Shown here piece by piece: positions 14,442 to 33,554 of a stretch of DNA of 64,000 nucleotides (the first letter of the stretch is position 1; every line of letters starts with the position of its first letter). The stretch is from the NCBI RefSeq assembly GCF_019056395.1, contig NZ_CP077639.1:2420001-2484000 (forward strand), written 5' to 3'. The notes under the pieces are model-generated. The model had not been told where the DNA came from. It saw nothing but the letters and a program-made list of their open reading frames with translations, and ran no database searches. The position numbers were made by a program, and so were the translations under genes. The DNA comes from Terribacillus sp. DMT04 (GTDB lineage Bacteria; Bacillota; Bacilli; Bacillales; Amphibacillaceae).

Positions 14442-15278
14442 TTACATCATTGATTTTGGCGGCATTGTATCGTGATAGAGGAAAGGAGCTGGCTTCAGTT
14501 TTGGCGCAGGCCCAAACGGCTCTGGCTCTGCTACATAGTTAAACTGGCCTCTGCCATCCATACTTGGACCGTGTGCCCAGCGGCCTTTGGAACTGGCATC
14601 CCCGCGGGAGAAGTTAAACAGTGTATACGCCACTTCGTTTTTTTCCAAGCTTCTCGGGAACGTAGTTGGAACAACAATGTCTCCTTCTCGCTCTTCTAGT
14701 TCTTTAATAGCAGCAATCCATTGGTTTTGGTGCATCGTATCACGAGCAATCAGGAAAGACAGCATATCACGCACGCCAGGGTCATCTGTCATGCCATAAA
14801 GACGCGTCACTTGCAAACGGCCTTGTGATTCCGCATTCAAGTTGGCACGAAAGTCAGCAAGCAAGTTTCCGCTGGAGATAATATACTTCGCATTCCAAGG
14901 GTAACCAGCTGCATCCGCCGCCATCGCACCAAGACCAGCAACGATACCATGCTGCGGATTTGTTCCGCCTAGGATAGCATTTAATGCCGGATCTGTTTCA
15001 TAGGCGTTCTTCTGATCCTCAAATGGCGCATCATCAAGTAAGCGTGCAATCATGGTTGCCAGCATTTCCACATGCGCAATTTCTTCTGTTCCTGTATCAA
15101 ATAGCAAATCTTTATATTTATCTTCACAACGTGTGTTCATCCCTTGCATCAAATATTGCATCATAACAGAGATTTCACCGTACTGTCCGCCCAATACTTC
15201 CTGCAGCTGTCTTGCGAAAACCGGATCCGGCTTGGATGGCTTAGCTTGATATTGCAGCTCTTTGATGTGATAAAACAT
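14442..15278 (-). CDS. Manganese catalase, paralogue 2
   Basis: 278 residues of the dimanganese catalase family. Metal ligands are complete: GQYGEISV, GTEEIAHVEM, NLNAESQGR and ARDTMHQNQW. It shares MFYHIKELQYQAKPSKPDPV with paralogue 1 (near identical opening) and is closer to it than to paralogue 3. I start at the ATG after GAAAGAGGTGGG; the open frame extends another 68 codons without a start signal. It follows the CoA-transferase gene and terminator and is probably transcribed alone. Confidence 0.92.
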   Translation of the reverse strand: MFYHIKELQYQAKPSKPDPVFARQLQEVLGGQYGEISVMMQYLMQGMNTRCEDKYKDLLFDTGTEEIAHVEMLATMIARLLDDAPFEDQKNAYETDPALNAILGGTNPQHGIVAGLGAMAADAAGYPWNAKYIISSGNLLADFRANLNAESQGRLQVTRLYGMTDDPGVRDMLSFLIARDTMHQNQWIAAIKELEEREGDIVVPTTFPRSLEKNEVAYTLFNFSRGDASSKGRWAHGPSMDGRGQFNYVAEPEPFGPAPKLKPAPFLYHDTMPPKSMM

Positions 15279-15405: not shown

Positions 15406-15440
15406 GCAAAAGAAGCCAGCATCCGCCCGGCTTCTTTTGT
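15406..15440 (-). terminator. Terminator of the catabolic island
   Basis: AAAAGAAGCC / GGCTTCTTTT perfect stem, usable on both strands, directly after the CoA-transferase stop. Confidence 0.8.
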
Positions 15441-15444
15441 TTCC

Positions 15445-16638
15445 TTATATAACCCCGTTTTGCTTGAATGCTTTAATCTCATCAGAAGAATAACCTAAAC
15501 TTTGTAAGATAGCTTCATTATTCTCCCCTAAATCTGGCGCGATGGAACGAATGCTGCCCGGTGTCTTTTCGAATTTCGGAACAATTCCCGGCACTTTAAT
15601 ATTGCCTAGTCTTGGATGCTTTACTTCTACTATATTCTCACGCGCTTGGTACTGCTCATTGTCAAAGATGTCGGCAACGCTTAATACCGGACTGATTGGT
15701 ACACCTGCTGCATCCAGCTTTTCCAATAGTTCCTCTCTTTCATGCTCGCTAATCCAATCAGCAACCATTTGATTCATTGCTTCATTGTTTTCTAAGCGGC
15801 TTGCATTCGTAGAATAGCGCGTATCTGTCAGCAAATCATTCCGATTCATAACTGCAGCCAGTCGATTAAAGGTTGTATCTGTGCTCGTTACAAGCACGAC
15901 CCAGTGATTATCCTTCGTTTTAAATGTTCCAGATGGAGAGGAATGCCCCGCTAGCCCTGGGGAGCGTTCACGAACTTTCCCAAGCTGATCATATTCTGCC
16001 ACAAGAAACTCCATCATACGAAACACCGATTCATAAAGCGCTACATCAATCATCTGCCCTGTTCCTGATTCTGCCGTTTCACGGTGGTATAACGCTGTAA
16101 CAGCCGCAAAAGCGACGTAAATGCCGCAAATATAATCTGTCAGCGAAAACGGCGGACTAACTGGATGACGATCAGTAAAACCTTGCAAATATGTGTAGCC
16201 GCTGAATGCTGTAGCCGGCGTGCCGAAGCCAGCTTTTTCCCGGTAAGGCCCTGTCTGACCATAGCCTGACACGCGAATCATAATTAAGTTTGGATTAATC
16301 TCTTTTAAGACATCATAGCCTACGCCCCACTTTTCCAATGTTCCCGGCCGGAAGTTTTCCACCAAAATATCATGTGTGGCAGCCAGCTTTTTCATAATCT
16401 CAACTCCAGCTGCTTTATGCAGATCAAGTGTGAGAGACTTTTTATTACGAGATAATCCTGGCCAGCGTAAAGGCTCATTTCCTTTAAATGGACCGACACT
16501 TCTGGACGTATCTCCTCTGCCCGGAATTTCGACTTTTGTCACATCTGCTCCAAAATCACCTAACAATGCTGTGCCAAATGGTGCAGCTATCATGGTGGAG
16601 ACATCGAGCACTTTGACACCTTCTAAAGGTGTGGACAT
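15445..16638 (-). CDS. CaiB/BaiF family (class III) CoA-transferase
   Basis: 397 residues. Class III CoA-transferase features: LEGVKVLDVSTMIAAPF at the start, LSRNKKSLTLDL, ENFRPGTLEKWGVG, SGYGQTGPYREKAGF and the catalytic aspartate near residue 168 in SLTDYICG. These enzymes move CoA between carboxylic acids (formyl/oxalate, succinate/mesaconate and others). AGGAGG precedes the ATG and the gene starts 16 bases after the ThDP enzyme. As last gene of the island it probably activates the acid made by the aldehyde dehydrogenase, for cleavage by the citryl-CoA-lyase-like protein. Acyl donor and acceptor are unknown. Confidence 0.88.
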   Translation of the reverse strand: MSTPLEGVKVLDVSTMIAAPFGTALLGDFGADVTKVEIPGRGDTSRSVGPFKGNEPLRWPGLSRNKKSLTLDLHKAAGVEIMKKLAATHDILVENFRPGTLEKWGVGYDVLKEINPNLIMIRVSGYGQTGPYREKAGFGTPATAFSGYTYLQGFTDRHPVSPPFSLTDYICGIYVAFAAVTALYHRETAESGTGQMIDVALYESVFRMMEFLVAEYDQLGKVRERSPGLAGHSSPSGTFKTKDNHWVVLVTSTDTTFNRLAAVMNRNDLLTDTRYSTNASRLENNEAMNQMVADWISEHEREELLEKLDAAGVPISPVLSVADIFDNEQYQARENIVEVKHPRLGNIKVPGIVPKFEKTPGSIRSIAPDLGENNEAILQSLGYSSDEIKAFKQNGVI

Positions 16639-16654
16639 ATTGCTGCCTCCTTTC

Positions 16655-18418
16655 TTATGGAATGCTTACATGAGACTTATCATCATCGGGAGAATAAATG
16701 TCATTGATATTCCACTTCCCATCAGTCGGAACAGGTTCATTCTTCATAGCTGCATCAATAACAATTGGTTCATTCGCGGCGATTGCTTCTTTTAACGCAG
16801 CTTGGAATTGCTCGGCACTGTCAATTTTAATTCCTTTTATGCCATATCCTTGGGCTATTGCTGCGAAGTCAGGCGAATAGCTTTTCCCATCACTTTGGAA
16901 TCGTGTGCCAAATGTTGTATCATAATGCGCCATTTCCAAGCCGGCAATCGTTCCGAAAGCACGATTATTCATCACAACCCAAACGACTGGAATATTTTCT
17001 TCCTTTGCTGTTGCAAGCACCGATGGATTTTGGCCGAATCCCCCATCTCCTATGAGCGAAATGACAACCTTATCTGGATCAGCTATCTTTGCTCCAAGTG
17101 CAGCAGAACTGCCAAAGCCCATGGTCGCAAATCCGCCTGGCGTTAATATAGAGCCTGGTGTATAGATAGGAAATTGCTGACCGACACCATTTTTATTCCA
17201 GCCAACGTCTGTCGTAATGTAGGCATCACGCGGCAGCACTTTCCGTACGTCTGCCAAAATACGCTCTGGCTTCATTGGGAAAGCTGTGCTGTTCACATTT
17301 TCTGAAATCTGTTCTCGCATCGTTTTGCGATAATGAATAATCTCTTTTTTCAATTGCTCATTACGCTGGATTCCATTTGGATACAACCGCTTGGCGACGC
17401 GATTTAAAGCGGTAAAGGCTTTTTTCAGATCCGCAACCGCTCCAATATCAACGGGATAGTTGCGGCCAATTTCACTTGCGTCTATATCAATATGAATCAG
17501 CTTGGTTTTCGGGAAATTGAAGGTAACATCATTGTACCAAGAGCTGGAATCTGCTTCCGAAAAGCGTGTTCCTGCTCCAAATAGATAATCAGCATATTTT
17601 GTTTGCTCATTGATGAAGCTCGTTCCCCAGAATCCTGTCATGCCTAATGTTAGTTCATGATCATCCGGCAGTACGCCTTTCCCCATCAAGCTATGCGCAA
17701 CTGGTATATTCATATGTTCAACAAACAGACGCAGCTCCTCAGCAGCGTCAGCGAGTACAATACCTCCACCGGCATACAGCACAGGACGTTGGGCTTTTGC
17801 CAGTTTTTCTACGATACGCGCAGCAGTTTCTTCATCTAATGCTGGTTTTTCTACTTCTTGCGTATGATGCTGCAGCTGACGGAATTTGTCTTCTTCTATC
17901 TTGGTCGAAAAGATATCCATCGGTACAGATACCAAAACTGGACCTGGGCGGCCGCTTTCTGCCAGCTGAAAGGCCTTTTGCAAGATTTCTGGGAATAGTT
18001 CTGCTTGATCTACGCGCCACGCACGTTTGACAAATGGACGATAAATTTCATATTGGGCACCGTCGGCGTGCAAATTCACTTCTTGATGCGGGTGTTTTCC
18101 GTAATAATAGCTCGGCACATCTCCAGCAATGACTACCATTGGTGTCGAGTCCAAGGCAGCATTCGCAACACCAGTCGCCGCGTTCGTTAAACCAGGTCCT
18201 AAATGACTCAGGACAACAGCTGCTTTTTTCGTCACTCTGGCATATCCGTCAGCTGCGTGCGAGGCAATCTGCTCATGGCGCACATTAATAAACTTGATTT
18301 TGCTTTTCTCGAGTTCCGCCAACACTGCGATATTCGTATGTCCGCACAATCCAAAAATATGTTTTACTCCGCGAGATTCCAAGTAAGTGACTAACTGTTC
18401 TGAGATTAGTTTTTTCAT
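16655..18418 (-). CDS. Thiamine-diphosphate-dependent enzyme (acetolactate synthase/decarboxylase fold)
   Basis: 587 residues with the three-domain ThDP fold. The catalytic Glu is at about 49 (NVRHEQIASHAADGYAR); LSHLGPGLTNAATG and the ThDP/Mg motif GDGGFGQN with VVMNNRAFGTI are all present, so it should be active. It is not a close match in my reading to acetolactate synthase, oxalyl-CoA decarboxylase, Xsc or IolD, although the FGLCGHTN opening recalls IolD. Likely roles are decarboxylation of a 2-oxo acid to an aldehyde or C-C cleavage of a diketone. It sits between the aldehyde dehydrogenase and CoA-transferase genes, which fits an aldehyde product. Confidence 0.88.
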   Translation of the reverse strand: MKKLISEQLVTYLESRGVKHIFGLCGHTNIAVLAELEKSKIKFINVRHEQIASHAADGYARVTKKAAVVLSHLGPGLTNAATGVANAALDSTPMVVIAGDVPSYYYGKHPHQEVNLHADGAQYEIYRPFVKRAWRVDQAELFPEILQKAFQLAESGRPGPVLVSVPMDIFSTKIEEDKFRQLQHHTQEVEKPALDEETAARIVEKLAKAQRPVLYAGGGIVLADAAEELRLFVEHMNIPVAHSLMGKGVLPDDHELTLGMTGFWGTSFINEQTKYADYLFGAGTRFSEADSSSWYNDVTFNFPKTKLIHIDIDASEIGRNYPVDIGAVADLKKAFTALNRVAKRLYPNGIQRNEQLKKEIIHYRKTMREQISENVNSTAFPMKPERILADVRKVLPRDAYITTDVGWNKNGVGQQFPIYTPGSILTPGGFATMGFGSSAALGAKIADPDKVVISLIGDGGFGQNPSVLATAKEENIPVVWVVMNNRAFGTIAGLEMAHYDTTFGTRFQSDGKSYSPDFAAIAQGYGIKGIKIDSAEQFQAALKEAIAANEPIVIDAAMKNEPVPTDGKWNINDIYSPDDDKSHVSIP

Positions 18419-18451
18419 TATACGTATCTCCTCTCATTCTCCGTGTTTCGC

Positions 18452-19879
18452 TTACAGCAAATCCTGCAGCACAACCATCTTCAATTCTGTCATCTCTTCC
18501 GCAGCAAATCTTGGACCTTCTCTGCCAATGCCGCTGTTCTTAATACCGCCATAAGGCCAGTGGTCTAGTCGGAAATTCGAGGACCCATTCACGACAACAC
18601 CGCCAACCTCCAGTTCAATTGCGGCCTTTCTAATTACCTCAAGTGAGTTCGAAAAGATACCCGCTTGCAAGCCAAATTCTGAATCATTTACTTCTTGGAT
18701 TGCTGTATCGATTTCTCGATAAGGCAGTACACTGACAACCGGCCCGAATACTTCCTGACAAACGACCTTGCTTTGTTTTTTTGGATTATATAAAATTGCA
18801 GGCTGGACGGAAGCACCGGTTGCCTTTCCTCCATACAGAAGTTCAGCTCCTTCCGCTACCGCTTCTTCCAGCCAGTCACGAACGCGCTCCGCTGTTTGAG
18901 TGTTAACCACACATCCGACATCCGTCTGTTCATCTTCGGGATTCCCTACAATAAGTGCTGCTGTATGCTCTTTCAGCTTGGATACAAACGCTTCTAAAAC
19001 ATTTTCATGCACATAAATCCGCTGGACAGATATACAGCTTTGCCCGGAATTACTGAATCCGGTTTTCGCGCAAATGGCGGCTGCCCGCTCGATGTTGGCA
19101 TCTTCATGTACAATTGTCCCCGCATTTCCGCCAAGTTCTAATAACACCTTTTTCATACCTGCCGTCTTGCTGATCTGCCTGCCGCCAGGAACACCTCCGG
19201 TAAAAGAAACAAGATTCACACGCTCATCTTGTACGAGCTGTTCGCCGATTTCTTTTCCGCCCAACACCATATGAATCGCTTGTGCTGGCATACCGGCCTC
19301 CAGCAGTAATTCTACTAATGCCGCCGCAATTAATGGCGCTTGCGGAGCTGGCTTTAGGATGGTAACATTGCCAGCCGCAAAACTCGGCCCGATTTTATGG
19401 CAAATCAAGTTAAGTGGTGCATTGAAGGGTGTGATCGCCGCAACTACCCCGACAGGTATCCGAAATGTTAACGCCATCGAGGAAAGTCCGCGTTCGGAAG
19501 CGCCTCCTGGCAAAGTTTCTCCGAACAGTCGTTTCGCTTCTTCTGCAGAAAGCTTCAATGTTTCAATAGACCGTTCCACTTCATCACGTGTATTTTTCAG
19601 TGCCTTTCCAACTTCTCTGGCAATTAACGTTGCAAACTCCTCTTTGCGTGCTTCCAGCAATTCAGCAGCCTGGTACAGTACCTTCGCACGGAATGCCGGA
19701 GACAGAGCAGCCATTTGTTTTTTATCCGTATGTGCTGCTTGCAAAGCCTCATTAACTTCTGCTTTGTCTGCCGCCAGTTGGAACCCAATACATTCATTCT
19801 GATAAGGACCAAGTACCGGTGTGGATTCCCGTTCATCATCAATCCATACACCATTTACATAAGGTCTTGCCTTTCGCAT
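18452..19879 (-). CDS. NAD(P)-dependent aldehyde dehydrogenase
   Basis: 475 residues. The ALDH superfamily motifs are intact: PFNAPLNLICHKIGPSFAAGN, catalytic Glu at about 248 in LLELGGNAG, catalytic Cys at about 282 in NSGQSCISVQR, and QEVFGPVVSV. It is closest in style to the lactaldehyde/glycolaldehyde/sulfolactaldehyde type rather than the CoA-acylating IolA type. The start at 19879 has AAAGGAG eight bases upstream and lies 5 bases from the stop of the citryl-CoA-lyase-like gene, a tight operon. It probably oxidises the aldehyde made by the ThDP enzyme. Confidence 0.9.
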   Translation of the reverse strand: MRKARPYVNGVWIDDERESTPVLGPYQNECIGFQLAADKAEVNEALQAAHTDKKQMAALSPAFRAKVLYQAAELLEARKEEFATLIAREVGKALKNTRDEVERSIETLKLSAEEAKRLFGETLPGGASERGLSSMALTFRIPVGVVAAITPFNAPLNLICHKIGPSFAAGNVTILKPAPQAPLIAAALVELLLEAGMPAQAIHMVLGGKEIGEQLVQDERVNLVSFTGGVPGGRQISKTAGMKKVLLELGGNAGTIVHEDANIERAAAICAKTGFSNSGQSCISVQRIYVHENVLEAFVSKLKEHTAALIVGNPEDEQTDVGCVVNTQTAERVRDWLEEAVAEGAELLYGGKATGASVQPAILYNPKKQSKVVCQEVFGPVVSVLPYREIDTAIQEVNDSEFGLQAGIFSNSLEVIRKAAIELEVGGVVVNGSSNFRLDHWPYGGIKNSGIGREGPRFAAEEMTELKMVVLQDLL

Positions 19880-19884
19880 CCCGA

Positions 19885-20712
19885 TCACTCCTTTGACTGG
19901 TTTTCCGGAACTTCCCCTGTATAACGCACAAGATGCGCTTCATTCGGACATGGCCCCTTAATCAACGTCCCTTGCGTTAATTCTTCATACGCATGCGCCA
20001 CAATTCCCATCCCCCGAGAAAGAGCAAAAACCCCCTTTGCCGCTTCTGCCGGAATACCAAGCTCGCATTGAATAGCTGCCGAAATACCATCCACATTGAT
20101 CGTAAAGGTACGTTTCTTTTGTTCAGAAATAGCTTGTCGGTAATTCCCTAAAATTGTAAGGTAACTGCCGCTGATTTCTCCGTTATTTATTACTTGCTGC
20201 GACAATTCGTACAGTCGGTTTACTCGCGGATCACGATCATGCAGCTGGTGTCCGAATCCAGGAAGTTTCTCACCTGCAGATAGGAGTAGCTGTAAGTTAT
20301 CTGCCACGGCATTTGAATTGGTCGCAAGCTCTGCCTCAGTCTTATACAATAATTCCATCGCACCTTCTACAGCGCCGCCATGAATGTCACCGAGCATATT
20401 TATGCCCGTAGCAACAGCTGAATTAAATGACACACCGCATGTTGCTGCCATTCTTGCTGCTGCTATCGAGGGTGCACGCGGGCCATGATCCGCTCCAGCT
20501 ACAAGCACACTTTCAAACAAAGCAGCTTGCACTTTGGTCAAGTTTTTCCCTACTAACAAGAAATACAGCATTTGGCTGTACGACACATTGCCAATTAGAT
20601 CTTCTACTCGCTTTCCGCGCAGTACAATCTCATTTTTCTTAATATCGCTAATCTCTGTCTCCCACCAAGCGCCTCCGTTTTTGTAATGTTCTAACGCACT
20701 GCGACCGCTCAT
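19885..20712 (-). CDS. Citryl-CoA lyase-like small citrate synthase homologue
   Basis: 275 residues, about two thirds of citrate synthase, as in the citryl-CoA lyase (Ccl) group. Catalytic elements are visible: ADHGPRAPS (His 76), GDIHGGAVEGAME (His 111), PGFGHQLHDRDPR (His 155) and NVDGISAAI (Asp 208). The small form lacks the large N-terminal segment of true citrate synthase. The family cleaves a 3-hydroxy-3-carboxy-acyl-CoA to acetyl-CoA and a 2-oxo acid. With a CoA-transferase in the same operon, a substrate other than citrate is quite possible. ATG preceded by AAAGGAGTG. Confidence 0.82.
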   Translation of the reverse strand: MSGRSALEHYKNGGAWWETEISDIKKNEIVLRGKRVEDLIGNVSYSQMLYFLLVGKNLTKVQAALFESVLVAGADHGPRAPSIAAARMAATCGVSFNSAVATGINMLGDIHGGAVEGAMELLYKTEAELATNSNAVADNLQLLLSAGEKLPGFGHQLHDRDPRVNRLYELSQQVINNGEISGSYLTILGNYRQAISEQKKRTFTINVDGISAAIQCELGIPAEAAKGVFALSRGMGIVAHAYEELTQGTLIKGPCPNEAHLVRYTGEVPENQSKE

Positions 20713-20736
20713 ACCTTCACTCCTTTAATCTAAAAT

Positions 20737-20750
20737 ACTTGTATACTAGG
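20737..20750. promoter_or_regulatory. Putative GntR operator (internal)
   Basis: ACTTGTATACTAGG is the reverse complement, within two end bases, of ACTAGTATACAAGT found before the gntR gene. It overlaps the stop of the isomerase gene and lies 25 bases before the lyase start. Confidence 0.55.
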
Positions 20751-21576
20751 ATATGTTTATATCGTCCTGAAACAGACTGATATATTTTTTAGCAGATACT
20801 AAACACCTTCTGCTATACTCCTCGAACCCTAATTCCTTTGCCCGCTGCAAATGCGGAATTTCAAGCGAATAAGGGATGGTGGGCATTTGCTGCAATATCT
20901 CTTTTATTGGGATGCCGCCTTCCCCAATGTAAAGACGTTCTTCTCTCATTATCTTTATCATCTGCTCTTTCGCAGAGGGAATCTCTTTCACAGCATCGCA
21001 TAAGTGAAACATATGAAACCATGATGCAGGTACGCTATTGATATCGCTTACATTTTCTTGTGCACGATGAAAATGATGGGCATCAATCAGCAGACCTGCA
21101 TTATCTTGTGCAGCTGCATGCAGCATACGGATCGCTTGTGTTAACGTCGCCACGGAAGCTACCGGAACAAATTCTAATTCAATCGTCAATTGGTAGCATT
21201 TGGCCAATTCACAGAGCTCAATAAAACGCTCGTTCGCAAATACGTCATCATCCGTCCACACACTGCACAGTACATGCCGCGCCCCTAGCTCTGCTCCGAC
21301 CTCAAAAGCAGGTTCATACTGCTTTGCCTCCATACCGTCCTCTATTTTGGCCAGTTCAATATCTAATACTTGCAAACCTGTTTGATGGAGTGCGGTCTTG
21401 GTATCACGCAGCATCGATTTATTTTTTGCCAGATTATAATCAGGTTCATTTTTTAACATCATTGAAATAGGCCTGATACTTACAAAATCATAGCCTGCCC
21501 GAGCGGCAATGTAAGTCAGCTTAGGTGGAGGACAAGCCAAAGCTGTCAGATGCGCTAAAGAAAATTGATTTCCCAC
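20746..21576 (-). CDS. Sugar-phosphate isomerase/epimerase-like TIM-barrel protein
   Basis: 276 residues of the xylose isomerase-like TIM barrel family (AP_endonuc_2). The opening TYIAARAGYDFVSIRP, the middle ELEFVPVASVATL and LLIDAHHFHRAQENVSD, and the later YIGEGGIPIKEIL give the usual metal-site Glu/Asp/His set. Relatives include IolE, IolI and hydroxypyruvate isomerase, so isomerisation, epimerisation or dehydration of a hydroxy-carbonyl compound is expected. GTG start with AAAGG upstream. It lies between the TRAP genes and the lyase operon. Confidence 0.82.
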   Translation of the reverse strand: MGNQFSLAHLTALACPPPKLTYIAARAGYDFVSIRPISMMLKNEPDYNLAKNKSMLRDTKTALHQTGLQVLDIELAKIEDGMEAKQYEPAFEVGAELGARHVLCSVWTDDDVFANERFIELCELAKCYQLTIELEFVPVASVATLTQAIRMLHAAAQDNAGLLIDAHHFHRAQENVSDINSVPASWFHMFHLCDAVKEIPSAKEQMIKIMREERLYIGEGGIPIKEILQQMPTIPYSLEIPHLQRAKELGFEEYSRRCLVSAKKYISLFQDDINIS

Positions 21577-21616
21577 TAATAACCAACCTTTCTGAATTCG
21601 CGGTCATTCGTACTGC

Positions 21617-22894
21617 TTATTCGCCGCCTAAAAACAGCAACGTGAGATCTGGAATCAAAATGACGAGCAGCAGTGCTACGAGCATGACGACAATATAAGG
21701 AACGATGGCTTTAGAGATTTTCATAATAGATAAACCAGATATTTCACTAGCAACAAATAAGTTTACGCCAATCGGAGGCGTAATAAAGCCAATAACCAGT
21801 GCCAAAATTATCATCATACCAAACTGGACAGGATCAAAACCAAGCTCCATGCCAACTGGAACTAACAGAGGCGTGAAAATGATAATTGCTGCCGTTGTGT
21901 CCATTACCATACCAATCAGAAGCAGCATGATAACAACGAGGGAAATGAGTATCACTGGATTTTCCGAAACAGAAAGCATGGCATTCGCAATGCGCGCTGG
22001 CATTTGCTCCAAGATCATTACTTTTCCGAATGCAGTTGCCGCACCAATAATCAGCATAATTGTTGCAGTCGTCAAAGCAGCTTTGCGAAACACATCATAT
22101 AAGTCTTTCAATTTCAGTTCTCTATATAGCAATACACCTGCAATCAAACCATACGCAACTGCAACAACCGCCGCTTCTGTTGGTGTAAAGTACCCGCCAT
22201 AAATACCTCCTAAGATTATCACTGGCACTAGCAGCGCCCATTTCGCATCCCAAACTGCACGCAGCACACGTTTGATTTGGAATGGCTCTCCTGTTCCGCT
22301 GTAGCCTTTTTTCTTTGCGTAGAAATAAACGTAGATCATAAGCAAAACAGCAATCAAAATACTTGGAAGGATGCCCGAGATAAACAAATCACCAACAGAT
22401 GTGCCACTCGTTACGCCATATACAATCATAGGAATACTTGGAGGCAGAATAACGCCTAACGTACCGGCAGCAGCAACGATACCAGCCGCAAACCGTCTGC
22501 TGTACCCCATATCTGCCATCATCGGGATCATTATCCCTCCGACAGCTGCAACTGTCGCCGGACCAGAACCGGATATAGCTGCAAAGAATAGGCAGGTAAT
22601 AATTGTCGTCATTGCCACCCCGCCAGTTACATTGCCAACAATCGACTCTGCAACGTTAATTAATCGCTTGGAAAGGCCTCCCTTGCCCATTATTTCGCCG
22701 GCTAAGATAAAGAAAGGCACAGCCATAATAGGGAAGGAATCTACCGACGTGATAAGACTTTGTGCCAAAAATGCAAAGGATATATCCTGGGCCGCTACAA
22801 TTGTCGCAATACAAGCCAAGACTAATGCGATCCCAATTGGGACACTTAACAGCAATAAGAGACCAAAGCTTACGAACATAACGATTGCCGTCAT
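21617..22894 (-). CDS. dctM: TRAP transporter large permease DctM
   Basis: 425 residues, about 12 membrane helices. Segments FPIMAVPFFILAGEIMGKGGLSKRL, GSGPATVAAVGGIMIPMM and IIIFTPLLVPVGMELG are diagnostic of DctM/SiaM proteins of the IT superfamily. It is the Na+-driven translocation channel of a tripartite uptake system for an organic acid. Starts 38 bases after DctQ with AAGGAG upstream. Confidence 0.94.
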   Translation of the reverse strand: MTAIVMFVSFGLLLLLSVPIGIALVLACIATIVAAQDISFAFLAQSLITSVDSFPIMAVPFFILAGEIMGKGGLSKRLINVAESIVGNVTGGVAMTTIITCLFFAAISGSGPATVAAVGGIMIPMMADMGYSRRFAAGIVAAAGTLGVILPPSIPMIVYGVTSGTSVGDLFISGILPSILIAVLLMIYVYFYAKKKGYSGTGEPFQIKRVLRAVWDAKWALLVPVIILGGIYGGYFTPTEAAVVAVAYGLIAGVLLYRELKLKDLYDVFRKAALTTATIMLIIGAATAFGKVMILEQMPARIANAMLSVSENPVILISLVVIMLLLIGMVMDTTAAIIIFTPLLVPVGMELGFDPVQFGMMIILALVIGFITPPIGVNLFVASEISGLSIMKISKAIVPYIVVMLVALLLVILIPDLTLLFLGGE

Positions 22895-22931
22895 TTTTCA
22901 CTCTCCTTGTCAGCTTGTTTTCAACACTCGT

Positions 22932-23432
22932 TCACACTTGATTTTTGTTTTTTTCTGCTGTTCGAAGTGACTTGAATTGAAGTAACAGCTGCTGCGTTAA
23001 ACGTAAAGAAGTTAAAAGCATCGCAACAGGTGCTGCCATATAAACCAGCCCCATATTTACTTGAAGTGCTGGAGAACGCTGACCCCACATTAAAATTTGC
23101 GCGCTGATCTTCCCGCCATACATAAGCAGAAAGATGGCGAAAAGAAGAAATAAAACATTTACTACTATTTCAAGTTTTAGCTGCTGTTTTGCATGTAATA
23201 ATCGAAGAAATGCATCTATCCTTATGTGCCGCTGCTTTTTCACGCCGTAGCTGATTCCAATAAAGACTAGCCAGATAAAACAATACCTTGCCAATTCTTC
23301 TGACCAGCCAATCGACGAACCAAGAACAAACCGCATTCCAACTTGTGCCGTTATAATAACTACCATGACACTCAGCAAAAACACCATCATGCTTTCTTCT
23401 GCATATCGGTTCAACCATCGTATAGGCTTCAT
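22932..23432 (-). CDS. dctQ: TRAP transporter small permease DctQ
   Basis: 166 residues with four membrane helices and the conserved SIGWSEELARYCFIWLVF and GVKKQRHIRIDAFL segments of DctQ. It helps couple the binding protein to DctM. Its start lies 17 bases after the binding-protein stop. Confidence 0.92.
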   Translation of the reverse strand: MKPIRWLNRYAEESMMVFLLSVMVVIITAQVGMRFVLGSSIGWSEELARYCFIWLVFIGISYGVKKQRHIRIDAFLRLLHAKQQLKLEIVVNVLFLLFAIFLLMYGGKISAQILMWGQRSPALQVNMGLVYMAAPVAMLLTSLRLTQQLLLQFKSLRTAEKNKNQV

Positions 23433-23448
23433 AATAACCTCCTTCGTC

Positions 23449-24453
23449 TTATTTGGTGGCTTCCGCCTCTATCTGTTTCAGCCATTCATCTCCATACTCC
23501 GCTTTGTAGCTATCGCGTACTTGTTGTGTTTCTTCTCGAAAGCGATTCATTTCTTCCTCACTTAACTCGGTTATCTTCATTCCTTTGTCTTTCAAAAATG
23601 CGAAGCTTTCCTCTTGCTCTTGCTGATTCATTTGACGCTGCTCCTGCTGTACTTCATCCGCTATCCTCTTAACAGCACTTTTCTCCTCTTCTGTAAGCGA
23701 CTCCCAGAACGGCTTACTCACCATAAATGGACTTGCGTTGTAAATATGATTCGTCACTGTTAGGTAATCCTGCACTTCATAAAAATGACTGTTCACTACA
23801 TTTCCTGCAGGATTTTCTTGGGCATCCACCGTCCCTTGTTCCAATCCTATATACAATTCGCCGTAGTTCATTGGCGTTGGATTTGCACCAAGCGAACTCC
23901 AAAGATTCATATGCCACTCATTTTCCAATGTACGGATATCAATGCCTTTTACATCTTCTACCGTTTGCACTTCTCGTACATTATTGCTGAGAAGCCGGAA
24001 TCCATTTTCCCAATAATTTAATCCAACAACGTTCTGCGCATCTAATTCATCCAGAAGACGCTCTCCAACCTCTCCGTCTAACACGCGGTAAGCCTCTTCT
24101 TCATTGGCGAACAAGAAAGGAAGATCCATCACATTGAATTCATCTGCAAACTGGGCGATCGGACCTGTCGACATGGATGCACCCTGAACGGTATTCAACT
24201 GCAACCCTTCAAATATTTCTCGGTCTCCCCCAATCACACTGTTCGAGAATACTTCCACGTCAATGGAGCCATTTGTCTCTTCTTCCAATCTCTCTTCAAA
24301 TAAATGCATCGCCTTACTGAGCGATCGATCATCCGGCGTTGCGTTTGCAAGACGCATTATCTTGACTTCCTCATCTGCTGCAGAACCGCTACTGCAAGCG
24401 CTTACAAAAAATAAGATACTTAGCAAGGACAAACACACTATCAAACGTTTCAT
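23449..24453 (-). CDS. dctP: TRAP transporter substrate-binding lipoprotein DctP
   Basis: 334 residues. A lipoprotein signal (LFFVSACSSG) is followed by the DctP fold. The invariant arginine that grips the ligand carboxylate is seen in GIDIRTLEN, and DAQENPAGN is the family motif near the second domain. ELYIGLEQGTVDAQENP is typical. This makes the imported substrate almost certainly an organic acid anion. Anchoring to the membrane fits a Gram-positive cell. It opens the transporter block, 39 bases after the dehydrogenase gene. Confidence 0.94.
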   Translation of the reverse strand: MKRLIVCLSLLSILFFVSACSSGSAADEEVKIMRLANATPDDRSLSKAMHLFEERLEEETNGSIDVEVFSNSVIGGDREIFEGLQLNTVQGASMSTGPIAQFADEFNVMDLPFLFANEEEAYRVLDGEVGERLLDELDAQNVVGLNYWENGFRLLSNNVREVQTVEDVKGIDIRTLENEWHMNLWSSLGANPTPMNYGELYIGLEQGTVDAQENPAGNVVNSHFYEVQDYLTVTNHIYNASPFMVSKPFWESLTEEEKSAVKRIADEVQQEQRQMNQQEQEESFAFLKDKGMKITELSEEEMNRFREETQQVRDSYKAEYGDEWLKQIEAEATK

Positions 24454-24492
24454 ACAACACCCACTTTCTTCTATATAAATGGATTTGCTTAT

Positions 24493-25527
24493 TCACTCAT
24501 GCAGGCTGACCTTTCTCTTCTCTTGCACAGAGAGGTTAATTGCCTCTAGTATTTCTAACGTTTTGAGACCTTCTTCACCTGTCACACGCGGCGCAGTCTC
24601 CCCTTTTAGTACTGCTTTAAAGTGCTCCAATTCCCCAATGATTGGATCTGCTGTTGTTTCCAAGGGAAATTGTTCTTCTGTTAGCGCATGCTTCCACCCA
24701 TATTGATCCTCACTGTATCGGAAGCAGCGAAAGCTTGGAAAAGCTAAACTTCCTTTTGTACCAAAAAAGTGGTAGCAATCTTCTTCATAAAAGTGGTAAA
24801 TTGGGTTCTCCATTACATTGAATTCATAAGACCACGGGGAAGGCACGCCATCTGTAAGAAAGTAATGAATAACCGTTCCATCTGCCGCTTCTAAAATTGC
24901 TGTTACAGCATCTTCTACTTTAAATCCTCGTATTTTATTACGCGCCACTCCGTAAGCGCTTTCAATTTTGAGGTTTGTTACATACAGCAAATTATCTAAG
25001 TCATGAATGCCATTAATTAATAATGGTCCGCCACTTGCTTTGATGCGCCAAGCTTCTTTATAGTAGTCTCGATCCTTAGCAAGTGCCCACACCATATTCA
25101 CCCCAACCAAGTCGCCTATTATATCGCTAGCTAACAATTGCTTTAAGTGATTGATTTTCTCAGAGAACCGGCGATGATGCCCAACCATAAGCTTTACTTG
25201 CTTCTGCTCGCAATAAGCAATCATCTCACGTGCAGCTTCGGTTGTATCAGCAATCGGTTTTTCTACTAAACAATGCACCCCCTGATCGGCACAATATTTA
25301 ACCGCTTCTTTGTGTAAATGATTCGGCAGTGTAATAATGACACCATCCAGCTGACATTGATCGATTAGCTGCTTGTAATCTTGGTACAGAGGGACTTCCA
25401 GTTCATTTGCCCGCTCAATCGCAGCAGCATTATTGCCAGCTACAGCCGCTAAAGTCAAACCTTTCATTTCTTTTAGCTGCTTTGCAAACGTGTAGCCATG
25501 ATTCAAACCTAAAACCGCAATCTGCAT
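24493..25527 (-). CDS. Gfo/Idh/MocA family oxidoreductase
   Basis: 344 residues. N-terminal Rossmann fold (AVLGLNHGYTFAKQL, a variant of the usual GxGxxG), then CLVEKPIADT with the EKP catalytic motif and GHHRRFSEKI. C-terminal alpha/beta domain carries GGPLLINGIHDLDNL. The family oxidises hydroxyls of sugars, inositols and sugar acids with NAD(P). As the first enzyme gene of the island it may perform the first oxidation of the imported acid. AAAAGGAGACTAG precedes the start and overlaps an operator-like ACTAGT. Confidence 0.88.
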   Translation of the reverse strand: MQIAVLGLNHGYTFAKQLKEMKGLTLAAVAGNNAAAIERANELEVPLYQDYKQLIDQCQLDGVIITLPNHLHKEAVKYCADQGVHCLVEKPIADTTEAAREMIAYCEQKQVKLMVGHHRRFSEKINHLKQLLASDIIGDLVGVNMVWALAKDRDYYKEAWRIKASGGPLLINGIHDLDNLLYVTNLKIESAYGVARNKIRGFKVEDAVTAILEAADGTVIHYFLTDGVPSPWSYEFNVMENPIYHFYEEDCYHFFGTKGSLAFPSFRCFRYSEDQYGWKHALTEEQFPLETTADPIIGELEHFKAVLKGETAPRVTGEEGLKTLEILEAINLSVQEKRKVSLHE

Positions 25528-25549
25528 CGTACTAGTCTCCTTTTAACAT

Positions 25550-25562
25550 ACTAGTTACAAGT
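25550..25562. promoter_or_regulatory. Putative GntR operator before the dehydrogenase
   Basis: ACTAGTTACAAGT, the same motif as at 26331 but one base shorter at the centre. It lies 23 bases upstream of the dehydrogenase start. Confidence 0.45.
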
Positions 25563-25582
25563 CTTACATCGTGTATCGTTCC

Positions 25583-26287
25583 TTAGTCAGCTTGTGCTAC
25601 AAAGTAATCCGCATACTTCTCCATAATCTCATCATAGTGATGAAAAGCCTTCCCAAGATGCTGCTTCAGTCGTTCAACGACACCGGTTGTATCATTTTGC
25701 TCAATCAAGGCAATTAATTCTTCATGGTCGTGTATGATCCGCTCCATATCGCGGCTTTCAAAGAATTCCAAGTACCGAATCCGGTTTACATGCCCCCTCA
25801 CCTGCCGCACAATTGCACTTAACGTCTGATTATCGCACATATCCAAAATCTTATCGTGGAAACTTTCATCTTGTTGATAAAATCCATCCACATCCCGCTT
25901 CTCTGACGCAGCTCTTTGCTGGTCTAAAATATGTGCCACATCAATCTTAAACCGTTTTGTCTGTAAAAGAGATGCATCCCACCGGCGAGCAGCTTCCTGA
26001 AAAGCAATAGCTTCCAAGCTCTCCCTAACCTGAAACGCTTCTTGCACTTTTCTCTTTGAGATAAAACTAACTCGAATACCTTTCTGCGGGATAACTTGCA
26101 CAAATCCCTCAGCAGCTAACAAATGAATCGCTTCTCTGACAGGCGTTCTGCTTAAGCCAAGCTCATCCGCTATCGCCGTCTCATAAATCATTGCACCCGG
26201 CTTGTGTTTCAACGTAATAATACTTGAATAAAGATGCTTATACACATCATGCGCCAATGTCTTCCGCTGACCAGGAAACTTATTCAC
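25583..26287 (-). CDS. GntR family (FCD-domain) transcriptional regulator
   Basis: About 234 residues. Winged helix-turn-helix at 10-75 (ETAIADELGLSRTPVREAIHLL is the classic GntR HTH) and a helical FCD ligand domain at about 85-220 with metal-binding His in ESFHDKIL and HDHEELIALIE. FCD regulators sense small organic acids. I start at GTG 26287, nine bases after AAAGAG; a TTG nine bases earlier has no ribosome site. It heads the island and is probably its repressor, acting at the CTAGTATACAAG sites. Confidence 0.9.
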   Translation of the reverse strand: MNKFPGQRKTLAHDVYKHLYSSIITLKHKPGAMIYETAIADELGLSRTPVREAIHLLAAEGFVQVIPQKGIRVSFISKRKVQEAFQVRESLEAIAFQEAARRWDASLLQTKRFKIDVAHILDQQRAASEKRDVDGFYQQDESFHDKILDMCDNQTLSAIVRQVRGHVNRIRYLEFFESRDMERIIHDHEELIALIEQNDTTGVVERLKQHLGKAFHHYDEIMEKYADYFVAQAD

Positions 26288-26330
26288 TTTTATCAACTCT
26301 TTATCTGCCTAATTTTCTGGACAAAATAAT

Positions 26331-26344
26331 ACTAGTATACAAGT
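26331..26344. promoter_or_regulatory. Putative GntR operator at the gntR promoter
   Basis: ACTAGTATACAAGT, a near-palindrome around GTATAC, 44 bases upstream of the gntR start. Repeated in inverted form at 20737 and imperfectly at 25550. Confidence 0.55.
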
Positions 26345-33463: not shown

Positions 33464-33478
33464 CTCTTTATTTATTAG

Positions 33479-33554
33479 CGCGCTCGGAGGGATTCGAACC
33501 CCCGGCAGACGTGGTACCGGAAACCACCGCTCTATCCGACTGAGCTACGAGCGC
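33479..33554 (-). tRNA. tRNA-Arg (anticodon CCG)
   Basis: Cloverleaf found by eye: acceptor GCGCTCG/CGAGCGC, D-stem GCTC/GAGC, anticodon stem GTGGT/ACCAC with loop TTCCGGT (anticodon CCG, reads CGG), T-stem GGGGG/CCCTC with TTCGAAT loop. CCA is not encoded. The variable loop is seven bases by this fold, a little long. Its 3' half is duplicated at 27011. Confidence 0.95.

Follow-up and report, generated by a model that had tools for sequence, protein, structure and literature searches.

The stretch of DNA analysed here, the window, comprises 64,000 nucleotides (positions 2,420,001 to 2,484,000 of contig NZ_CP077639.1) of the 3.52-Mb genome of Terribacillus sp. DMT04. A Pfam scan combined with open reading frame positions places ten annotated genes, all on the minus strand, between positions 15445 and 26296 (Table 1). 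They encode a GntR regulator, a Gfo/Idh oxidoreductase, a tripartite ATP-independent periplasmic (TRAP) importer, a TIM-barrel protein (TIM), a small citrate-synthase homologue (Ccl), an aldehyde dehydrogenase (ALDH), a thiamine diphosphate (ThDP) enzyme and the CoA-transferase CaiB. The intergenic gaps along the cluster are 55, 39, 16, 37, 40, 33, -4, 33 and 16 bp, and with spacings of -4 to 55 bp the ten genes are likely a single operon. An initial annotation had read this one-strand gene set as one catabolic operon with its own importer, which the gaps and the gene content bear out. It had also suggested a sugar acid or tricarboxylate as the substrate. Related clusters point instead to quinate or shikimate, and we propose that the operon would convert quinate to acetyl-CoA and 2-oxoglutarate by a non-aromatic route through homocitryl-CoA.

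Table 1. Features of the operon, with their positions in the window and the basis of each assignment
Feature	Position	Strand	Basis
Putative GntR operator TTGTATACTAGTA, exact	26330..26342	-	33 bp upstream of GntR
GntR/FCD-family regulator, proposed operon repressor	25583..26296	-	PF07729 81 bits, PF00392 54 bits; first gene of the operon
Second putative operator, GntR-Gfo gap, degenerate: TTGTAACTAGTAT, one T short	25548..25560	-	read from the sequence
Gfo/Idh/MocA oxidoreductase (Gfo), proposed quinate 3-dehydrogenase	24493..25527	-	PF01408, PF22725; EKP motif 89-91, H175
DctP, TRAP solute-binding protein	23449..24453	-	PF03480 305 bits
DctQ, TRAP small permease	22932..23432	-	PF04290 120 bits
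DctM, TRAP large permease	21617..22894	-	PF06808 410 bits
TIM-barrel protein (xylose-isomerase-like), proposed 3-dehydroquinate dehydratase giving a 3,4-dione	20746..21576	-	PF01261 57 bits
Third operator-like site, end of TIM, one mismatch	20739..20751	+	pattern match
Ccl, 275-aa citrate-synthase C-domain protein, proposed homocitryl-CoA lyase	19885..20712	-	NF004864 above cut-off
ALDH, proposed homocitrate-semialdehyde dehydrogenase	18452..19888	-	PF00171 497 bits
ThDP enzyme, proposed ring hydrolase for a 1,2-dione	16655..18418	-	PF00205, PF02775, PF02776; E49
CaiB, CoA-transferase family III, proposed homocitrate CoA-transferase	15445..16638	-	PF02515 387 bits; D168
Hairpin directly 3' of CaiB, possible terminator	15409-15437	-	RNA fold -19.8 kcal/mol, 37 bases folded

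The residues first singled out in these proteins are in place. Glu49 of the ThDP enzyme and Asp168 of CaiB are present, the latter together with the PF02515 domain assigning CaiB to CoA-transferase family III, and Glu248 and Cys282 of the ALDH are correctly numbered from the next Met (251 and 285 from the GTG start). DctP carries an Arg at position 174, presumably the ligand Arg named in the initial annotation. No NCBIfam cut-off was passed by the ALDH among the matches listed (best 25 of 45 families), by the ThDP enzyme among those listed (best 25 of 57 families) or by CaiB in any of seven families. Within the genus, the ThDP gene has a likely copy in each of ten genomes searched, going by how its hits to the IolD model score and how far they span. 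The best matches of Ccl come from six Terribacillus genomes (81-95% identity) and from one genome labelled Virgibacillus sp. 7505 (83%).

Candidate enzymes and their nearest families

Four residues of TIM (E135, D165, H191 and E239) are invariant in all 14 aligned sequences, that of the window included. In the accessible portion of PMC9324987, Glu142, Asp172 and Glu253 of AsbF are metal ligands and His198 is product-binding. Set against that portion, the TIM residues repeat the Glu142-Asp172-His198 spacing, with a last step of 48 rather than 55, and the protein combines the metal-binding Glu, Asp and Glu and the active-site His of AsbF/QuiC-type enzymes in a TIM barrel. Its AlphaFold model has a pLDDT of 92.2, and its score against the QuiC model NF042435 is 20 bits (cut-off 1200). 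By its conserved residues TIM looks like a dehydratase, and not like the catalyst of a rearrangement that it was first taken for.

The resemblance to inositol degradation that the initial annotation pointed out holds. A Gfo/Idh protein, a TIM barrel, a ThDP enzyme and an ALDH are parts of both systems, and the proposed oxidation, dehydration to a cyclic 1,2-dione and ThDP-dependent ring hydrolysis would parallel the myo-inositol (Iol) pathway. The motif G-H-x-N occurs in IolD and in the window ThDP enzyme (where its His is H27) and is lacking from two ThDP paralogues of the same genome. Among 30 orthologues, all share G-H at positions 26-27 and 28 have N29, which is replaced by V in L055 and L056 (L and G numbers denote our loci and genomes). 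In a tree with IolD as the root, these 30 sequences group in one clade (support 0.93). Gfo scores 123 bits against TIGR04380 (IolG, cut-off 355) and the ThDP enzyme 247.6 bits against TIGR04377 (IolD, cut-off 715), the IolE model TIGR04379 does not match TIM and yields no hit over cut-off anywhere in the genome, and IolA is not among the ALDH matches listed. IolB, IolC and IolJ are missing from the ten genes, as first noted, and the window route would end in a Claisen-type cleavage of a CoA ester. A plain inositol operon was rejected on the scores against the IolG, IolE and IolD models.

The ThDP enzyme may thus work like IolD without being IolD. It scores 437.2 bits against the acetolactate synthase model TIGR00118 (cut-off 538.35), and its best PDB match among those listed is BbmA (284 bits). 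It shares the ThDP superfamily, and the proposed C-C cleavage of a cyclic 1,2-dione, with cyclohexane-1,2-dione hydrolase. The similarity to that enzyme is moderate (ranks 57 and 60 among the 60 PDB matches listed, at 152 and 147 bits), and the proposed substrate differs in bearing a carboxylate and a tertiary hydroxyl.

Ccl scores 346.9 bits against NF004864, 'citryl-CoA lyase' (cut-off 261), and its best PDB match is the citryl-CoA lyase 6hxp (141 bits), to which it aligns over residues 17-271. It keeps H111, H155 and D208, which are invariant in 20 aligned sequences and which, from citrate synthase, we take to be the catalytic residues. The substrate proposed for Ccl, homocitryl-CoA, is one carbon longer than that of citryl-CoA lyase.

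Related loci and the likely substrate

Using Ccl as bait, we collected 30 loci from genome contigs. With ThDP as bait, matches were found in 6 of the 398 genomes searched from the phylum and in 17 of the 299 from the order (the window genome included in each count), in 3 of 8 genomes of another order, all three already in the phylum set, and in 18 plasmid records, of which the best three were used. Three duplicate loci and four loci lacking ThDP were dropped before counting, leaving 50 distinct ThDP-bearing loci (26 via Ccl, 24 via ThDP), in which components were assigned by identity thresholds of our choosing. The search for conserved neighbourhoods that the initial annotation had called for finds the gene set recurring in many genomes. 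TIM is present in 29 loci, Gfo/Idh in 14, a TRAP importer in 22, a Tct (tricarboxylate-type) importer in 10 and a zinc alcohol dehydrogenase in 18. Shikimate-related proteins are also common: AroD, the type I dehydroquinase, in 21 loci, a type II dehydroquinase in 3, a shikimate dehydrogenase in 8 and a shikimate-kinase-like protein in 17.

Among these, AroD is the strongest pointer to the substrate. Two AroD proteins that were scanned score 206.7 and 218.1 bits against TIGR01093 (cut-off 139.3), and AroD genes lie in clusters L010, L012, L013, L015-L022 and others. In 21 ThDP genomes, 11 of 18 AroD genes fall within 10 kb of ThDP, with 0.11 expected at random placement; the corresponding P value, 1e-20, treats the genomes as independent, which related genomes are not, and so comes out too small. 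AroD is close to ThDP in nine of the ten genera that have it. Type II dehydroquinase genes lie within 10 kb of ThDP in 2 of 13 cases (0.075 expected, P = 0.0025) and occur in clusters L014, L043 and L046, in the last directly after TIM. On a plasmid of Azoarcus KH32C, the annotations read consecutively IclR, a 4-hydroxyphenylpyruvate dioxygenase (HPPD)-like protein, TIM (of the sugar-phosphate-isomerase type), CaiB, Ccl, ThDP, shikimate dehydrogenase and aroD. In four Shouchella-type genomes (L077, L078, L079 and L083), TIM, IclR, AroD and a Tct importer stand together at another locus, some 300-400 kb away from ThDP. Genomic context thus gives good support to quinate or shikimate as the substrate class, an assignment that we consider very probable.

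These neighbours also bear on the substrates first suggested. A sugar-acid, cyclitol or tricarboxylate pathway, in which Ccl would be a true citryl-CoA lyase, would fit the NCBIfam assignment of Ccl, the Tct importers and the occurrence of Gfo/Idh and TIM proteins in inositol pathways. AroD, type II dehydroquinase, shikimate dehydrogenases and the shared operator-like site (see below) speak against it, as does the replacement of Ccl by hydroxymethylglutaryl-CoA (HMG-CoA)-lyase-type proteins, and we regard it as quite unlikely. True citrate or tricarballylate catabolism was likewise lowered as a candidate because dehydroquinase and shikimate dehydrogenase recur.

Reported phenotypes of Bacillus offer a link to quinate at the species level through L015, the B. 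altitudinis cluster. In the accessible part of PMC6708576, whose Table 1 reports Biolog GEN III results, quinic acid was positive only in B. stratosphericus and B. altitudinis among 11 Bacillus isolates; B. safensis was negative, and Pantoea dispersa was positive among four other isolates. In the available text of PMC6637823, quinic acid use sets apart an isolate whose 16S is 100% identical to that of B. altitudinis from a B. safensis-like isolate. Four Bacillus strains were negative on quinic acid in the accessible portion of PMC7285132.

Several side observations were made on the composition of these loci. Shikimate-kinase-like proteins of about 187 aa stand beside ThDP clusters in L014, L041, L044-L048, L051, L052, L081 and L087, frequently accompanied by a LacI regulator or by a membrane protein of 448 aa that has no NCBIfam match at 1e-15. 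Three Terribacillus-type clusters (L005, L007 and L024) lack TRAP genes between Gfo and TIM. In a Shouchella-type genome, L037 (G658 C1:3213500-3233000) holds a second, diverged pair of ThDP (59%) and TIM (49%) with a 50% ALDH, which may serve a related pathway that handles a different ring compound. QuiC-like or HPPD-like proteins lie beside Ccl/ThDP clusters in L025, L029, L030, L031 and L033, and in the last of these, from Azoarcus, the TIM part and the HPPD part are separate genes. Ccl alone was rejected as a pathway marker, as four loci carry it without ThDP. Three of them (L026, L028 and L032, from alphaproteobacteria, with no TIM in the stretch) pair Ccl with CaiB, a setting in which Ccl probably does something else. 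In the fourth, L027, Ccl stands by itself.

Operator-like sites and exchangeable modules

A 12-mer core of the putative operator, TGTATACTAGTA, also precedes GntR in other Terribacillus, in Shouchella and in JMAK1-type loci. The full region upstream of GntR aligns noisily except at this site. An exact second copy stands behind GntR in L003, L004, L006, L007, L009-L013, L023 and L024, and in L010 and L012 the gene that follows GntR and the second site is TIM. An exact 12-mer also lies at the end of TIM in L007 and L023, matching the position of the third site of the window.

Across seven whole genomes there are 24 exact matches to the 12-mer, 18 of them at pathway genes, and a reversed-pattern control gave 0-1 matches per genome. 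In four genomes (G679, G536, G702 and G626) all 12 sites are at pathway genes. Two per genome are at the GntR cluster; the third precedes the distant TIM-IclR-AroD locus in G679, G536 and G702 and lies 87 bp before a second AroD in G626. The remaining three genomes have 6 of 12 sites at pathway genes (1/3 in the window genome, 2/3 in G592 and 3/6 in G658). Of the six stray sites, four are inside genes and two precede the same 209-aa gene in the window genome and in G592. We take the six for chance, with less certainty for the pair before the 209-aa gene, which is perhaps a further target. By appearance this gene is upp-like (sites L085:8757 and L086:3440, in two Terribacillus-type genomes). 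This distribution is consistent with GntR controlling the operon through the putative operator sites.

Two exchanges among the late enzymes bear on the chemistry. The first concerns the lyase, with Ccl in 35 of the 50 loci, an HMG-CoA-lyase-type protein in 8, both in none and neither in 7. Among the 24 loci fetched with ThDP, which have no Ccl bias, the corresponding numbers are 9 with Ccl, 8 with the HMG-CoA-lyase type and 7 with neither. Three HMG-CoA-lyase-type proteins that were scanned score 322-350 bits against NF004283 (cut-off 246). In two of the loci with neither lyase (L056 and L057) the contig is short; for three others (L041, L042 and L044) the genome holds an HMG-CoA-lyase type in another stretch (L080, L043 and L082, respectively).

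The second exchange concerns the aldehyde-oxidising enzymes. Of the 37 loci that have the ALDH but no CoA-acylating ALDH, 31 have CaiB, and of the 10 that have the acylating form alone, 1 does (Fisher p = 3e-5, uncorrected for kinship); L046 has both kinds of ALDH, and L033 and L053 have neither. For two CoA-acylating ALDHs that were scanned, the best model was NF047625, with scores below its cut-off. Members of the Ccl and HMG-CoA lyase families act on 3-hydroxyacyl-CoA esters whose C3 is fully substituted, splitting them into acetyl-CoA and a keto product. Taken together, both exchanges therefore suggest that the cell makes an aldehyde, converts it to a CoA ester, either with ALDH and CaiB or with an acylating ALDH, and cleaves the ester to acetyl-CoA, as it seems.

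At the 3' end of the operon, the hairpin behind CaiB has its T-run inside the stem and was not among the hits of the terminator scan. A gene that by appearance encodes a manganese-catalase/CotJC-like protein follows directly downstream (14442-15278, minus strand). All seven Terribacillus-type loci examined have such a gene close to CaiB, adjoining it in two and standing behind a gene of about 400 aa in five (with a major facilitator superfamily-like start in L006). The sole tRNA gene found in the window, a tRNA-Arg(ccg) at 33478-33554 on the minus strand, lies about 7 kb from the operon.

A proposed route from quinate to acetyl-CoA

In the route that we propose, the TRAP system would import quinate, and probably also shikimate in many relatives. 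Gfo/Idh would oxidise quinate at C3 to 3-dehydroquinate, which in relatives could also be formed from shikimate by shikimate dehydrogenase and by dehydroquinase run in the hydration direction. In 3-dehydroquinate, C1 bears a tertiary hydroxyl and a carboxyl and is flanked by two CH2 groups. TIM would act as IolE and 3-dehydroshikimate dehydratases do and eliminate water across C4-C5, giving 1-hydroxy-3,4-dioxocyclohexanecarboxylate, a product that would not aromatise because C1 keeps its tertiary hydroxyl. The ThDP enzyme would then hydrolyse the C3-C4 bond of the dione in the manner of IolD and cyclohexane-1,2-dione hydrolase, turning C4 into a carboxylate and C3 into an aldehyde. With the regiochemistry of both steps taken from the inositol pathway, an IolE-type C4-C5 dehydration followed by an IolD-type C3-C4 hydrolysis would yield exactly homocitrate semialdehyde. 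The ALDH would oxidise this compound to homocitrate, CaiB would activate homocitrate to homocitryl-CoA, Ccl would cleave homocitryl-CoA at C1-C2 into acetyl-CoA and 2-oxoglutarate, and GntR would control expression of the whole. A final cleavage to acetyl-CoA and a 2-oxo acid agrees with the initial annotation, and the order in which that account had arranged the parts does not.

We put the probability of this non-aromatic, oxygen-independent route via homocitryl-CoA at roughly 70%. It draws on genes, motifs, co-occurrence, module swaps and shared operator-like sites, from which we infer every substrate and product, the reaction order, the function of the operators and the CoA donor. The carbon map is our own inference; it uses all of the enzymes, unlike any rival that we considered.

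Bacteria are generally held to degrade quinate and shikimate, which are common plant acids, by aromatisation to protocatechuate followed by a ring-cleaving dioxygenase. The protocatechuate pathways (Qsu, Qui and qa) share with our scheme the expected entry by quinate/shikimate dehydrogenase and dehydroquinase, and the fold and acidic ligands of the TIM dehydratase; in our model, there is neither an aromatic product nor a dioxygenase, and the ring would be opened while still hydroaromatic. It is conceivable that TIM is a QuiC2-like 3-dehydroshikimate dehydratase leading to protocatechuate and that the other enzymes serve an unrelated acid. The closest solved structure to TIM, Listeria Lmo2234 (52 bits), which may be QuiC2 as we presume, would agree with this, as would the QuiC-like proteins of the alphaproteobacterial and Azoarcus clusters. 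On the other side, a PF00775 intradiol dioxygenase was found in none of the one window genome searched, with control matches in 4 of 14 genomes and extradiol LigB-type enzymes not searched, and the ThDP enzyme, Ccl or HMG-CoA-lyase type, CaiB and acylating ALDH recur together with no role in that route. On these two grounds protocatechuate formation was rejected as the leading explanation, and it appears very unlikely.

A number of observations weigh against the homocitryl-CoA route or against parts of it. Some concern the substrate. Type I AroD is missing from the window's cluster and from its genome, which has a type II enzyme only; the substrate assignment for this genome therefore rests on orthology, and quinate is likelier here than shikimate. 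In 23 of the 50 loci, those of Terribacillus included, there is no dehydroquinase or shikimate dehydrogenase in the stretch, a number that drops to 19 of 50 if the shikimate-kinase-like protein is counted as a marker. For some of these loci, the distant second locus of the Shouchella-type genomes supplies AroD. Of 15 AroD-bearing genomes, 12 have no type II enzyme, and AroD therefore presumably serves biosynthesis there too. The phenotypes, within the portions of the reports available to us, separate the pumilus group (2 of 3 quinic-positive) from other Bacillus (0 of 8) at a Fisher p of only 0.055. The B. safensis loci L020 and L022 hold the core genes, yet two B. safensis or B. safensis-like isolates are quinic-negative in the same portions, and the core is therefore not sufficient.

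Other such observations concern the enzymes. The ThDP enzyme is closer to an acetolactate-synthase-like paralogue (33%) than to IolD (26%), and Ccl may have citryl-CoA specificity. In Streptomyces, L034 has a cluster with Ccl and, at a distance of about 6 kb to ThDP, an HMG-CoA-lyase-like protein (38%) accompanied by a CaiB of its own (40%); at 38%, this protein falls below the 50% threshold and was not counted. The alphaproteobacterial and Azoarcus clusters carry QuiC/HPPD-like proteins that are superfluous to the scheme. Clusters also vary in their entry dehydrogenase. Finally, TIM has no match at E 1e-10 in G699, G700, G111 and G289 and only a 29% match in G701. G699, the genome of L015, is B. 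altitudinis, a quinate-positive species by the accessible parts of those reports and, like G700, a member of the B. pumilus group, three genomes of which have no clear TIM. With no clear TIM in a quinate-positive species, another dehydratase or direct cleavage by the ThDP enzyme must therefore be allowed.

In the latter case, the ThDP enzyme would cleave 3-dehydroquinate itself as an acyloin, at C3-C4, to a dialdehyde; oxidation and CoA activation would follow, the lyase would release acetyl-CoA and 4-hydroxy-2-oxoglutarate, and TIM would be an isomerase or an accessory. This would account for the genomes without TIM. The presence of TIM in 29 of 50 loci argues against it, as do the distant TIM of the Shouchella-type genomes, which adjoins AroD and shares the operator-like site, and the conserved acidic residues of TIM, which match those of dehydratases in the accessible part of the AsbF report. 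We consider direct cleavage unlikely.

If the homocitryl-CoA route is correct, the operon would stand for a complete, undescribed pathway that takes quinate and shikimate to acetyl-CoA and 2-oxoglutarate with no oxygen and no aromatic intermediate, in Bacillota and alpha- and betaproteobacteria and perhaps in actinomycetes. We think that this wider claim is probably right, if somewhat less firmly than the route itself. The pathway would include three undescribed activities, a dione-forming 3-dehydroquinate dehydratase, a ThDP dione hydrolase and a homocitryl-CoA lyase, the last of which would have two evolutionary origins, one in the citrate-synthase fold and one in HMG-CoA lyase. We found no orthology to a known complete pathway, and the author of the initial annotation was aware of no described pathway with this gene set. 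No such route was found in the titles and abstracts that the literature searches listed, and the term 'homocitryl-CoA' was absent from all 5.39 million papers searched, a set without most subscription journals. To our knowledge the back half of the pathway has no counterpart, and the front half follows the logic of inositol degradation. Brune and Schink reportedly described in 1992 anaerobes that ferment quinate and shikimate without aromatising them. Each proposed step predicts a small, named and measurable product. If true, the homocitryl-CoA route would explain the use of quinate and shikimate by organisms that have no ring-cleaving dioxygenase, also where oxygen is absent, and would assign a function to genes that at present carry the names citryl-CoA lyase, acetolactate-synthase-like protein and hydroxymethylglutaryl-CoA lyase.

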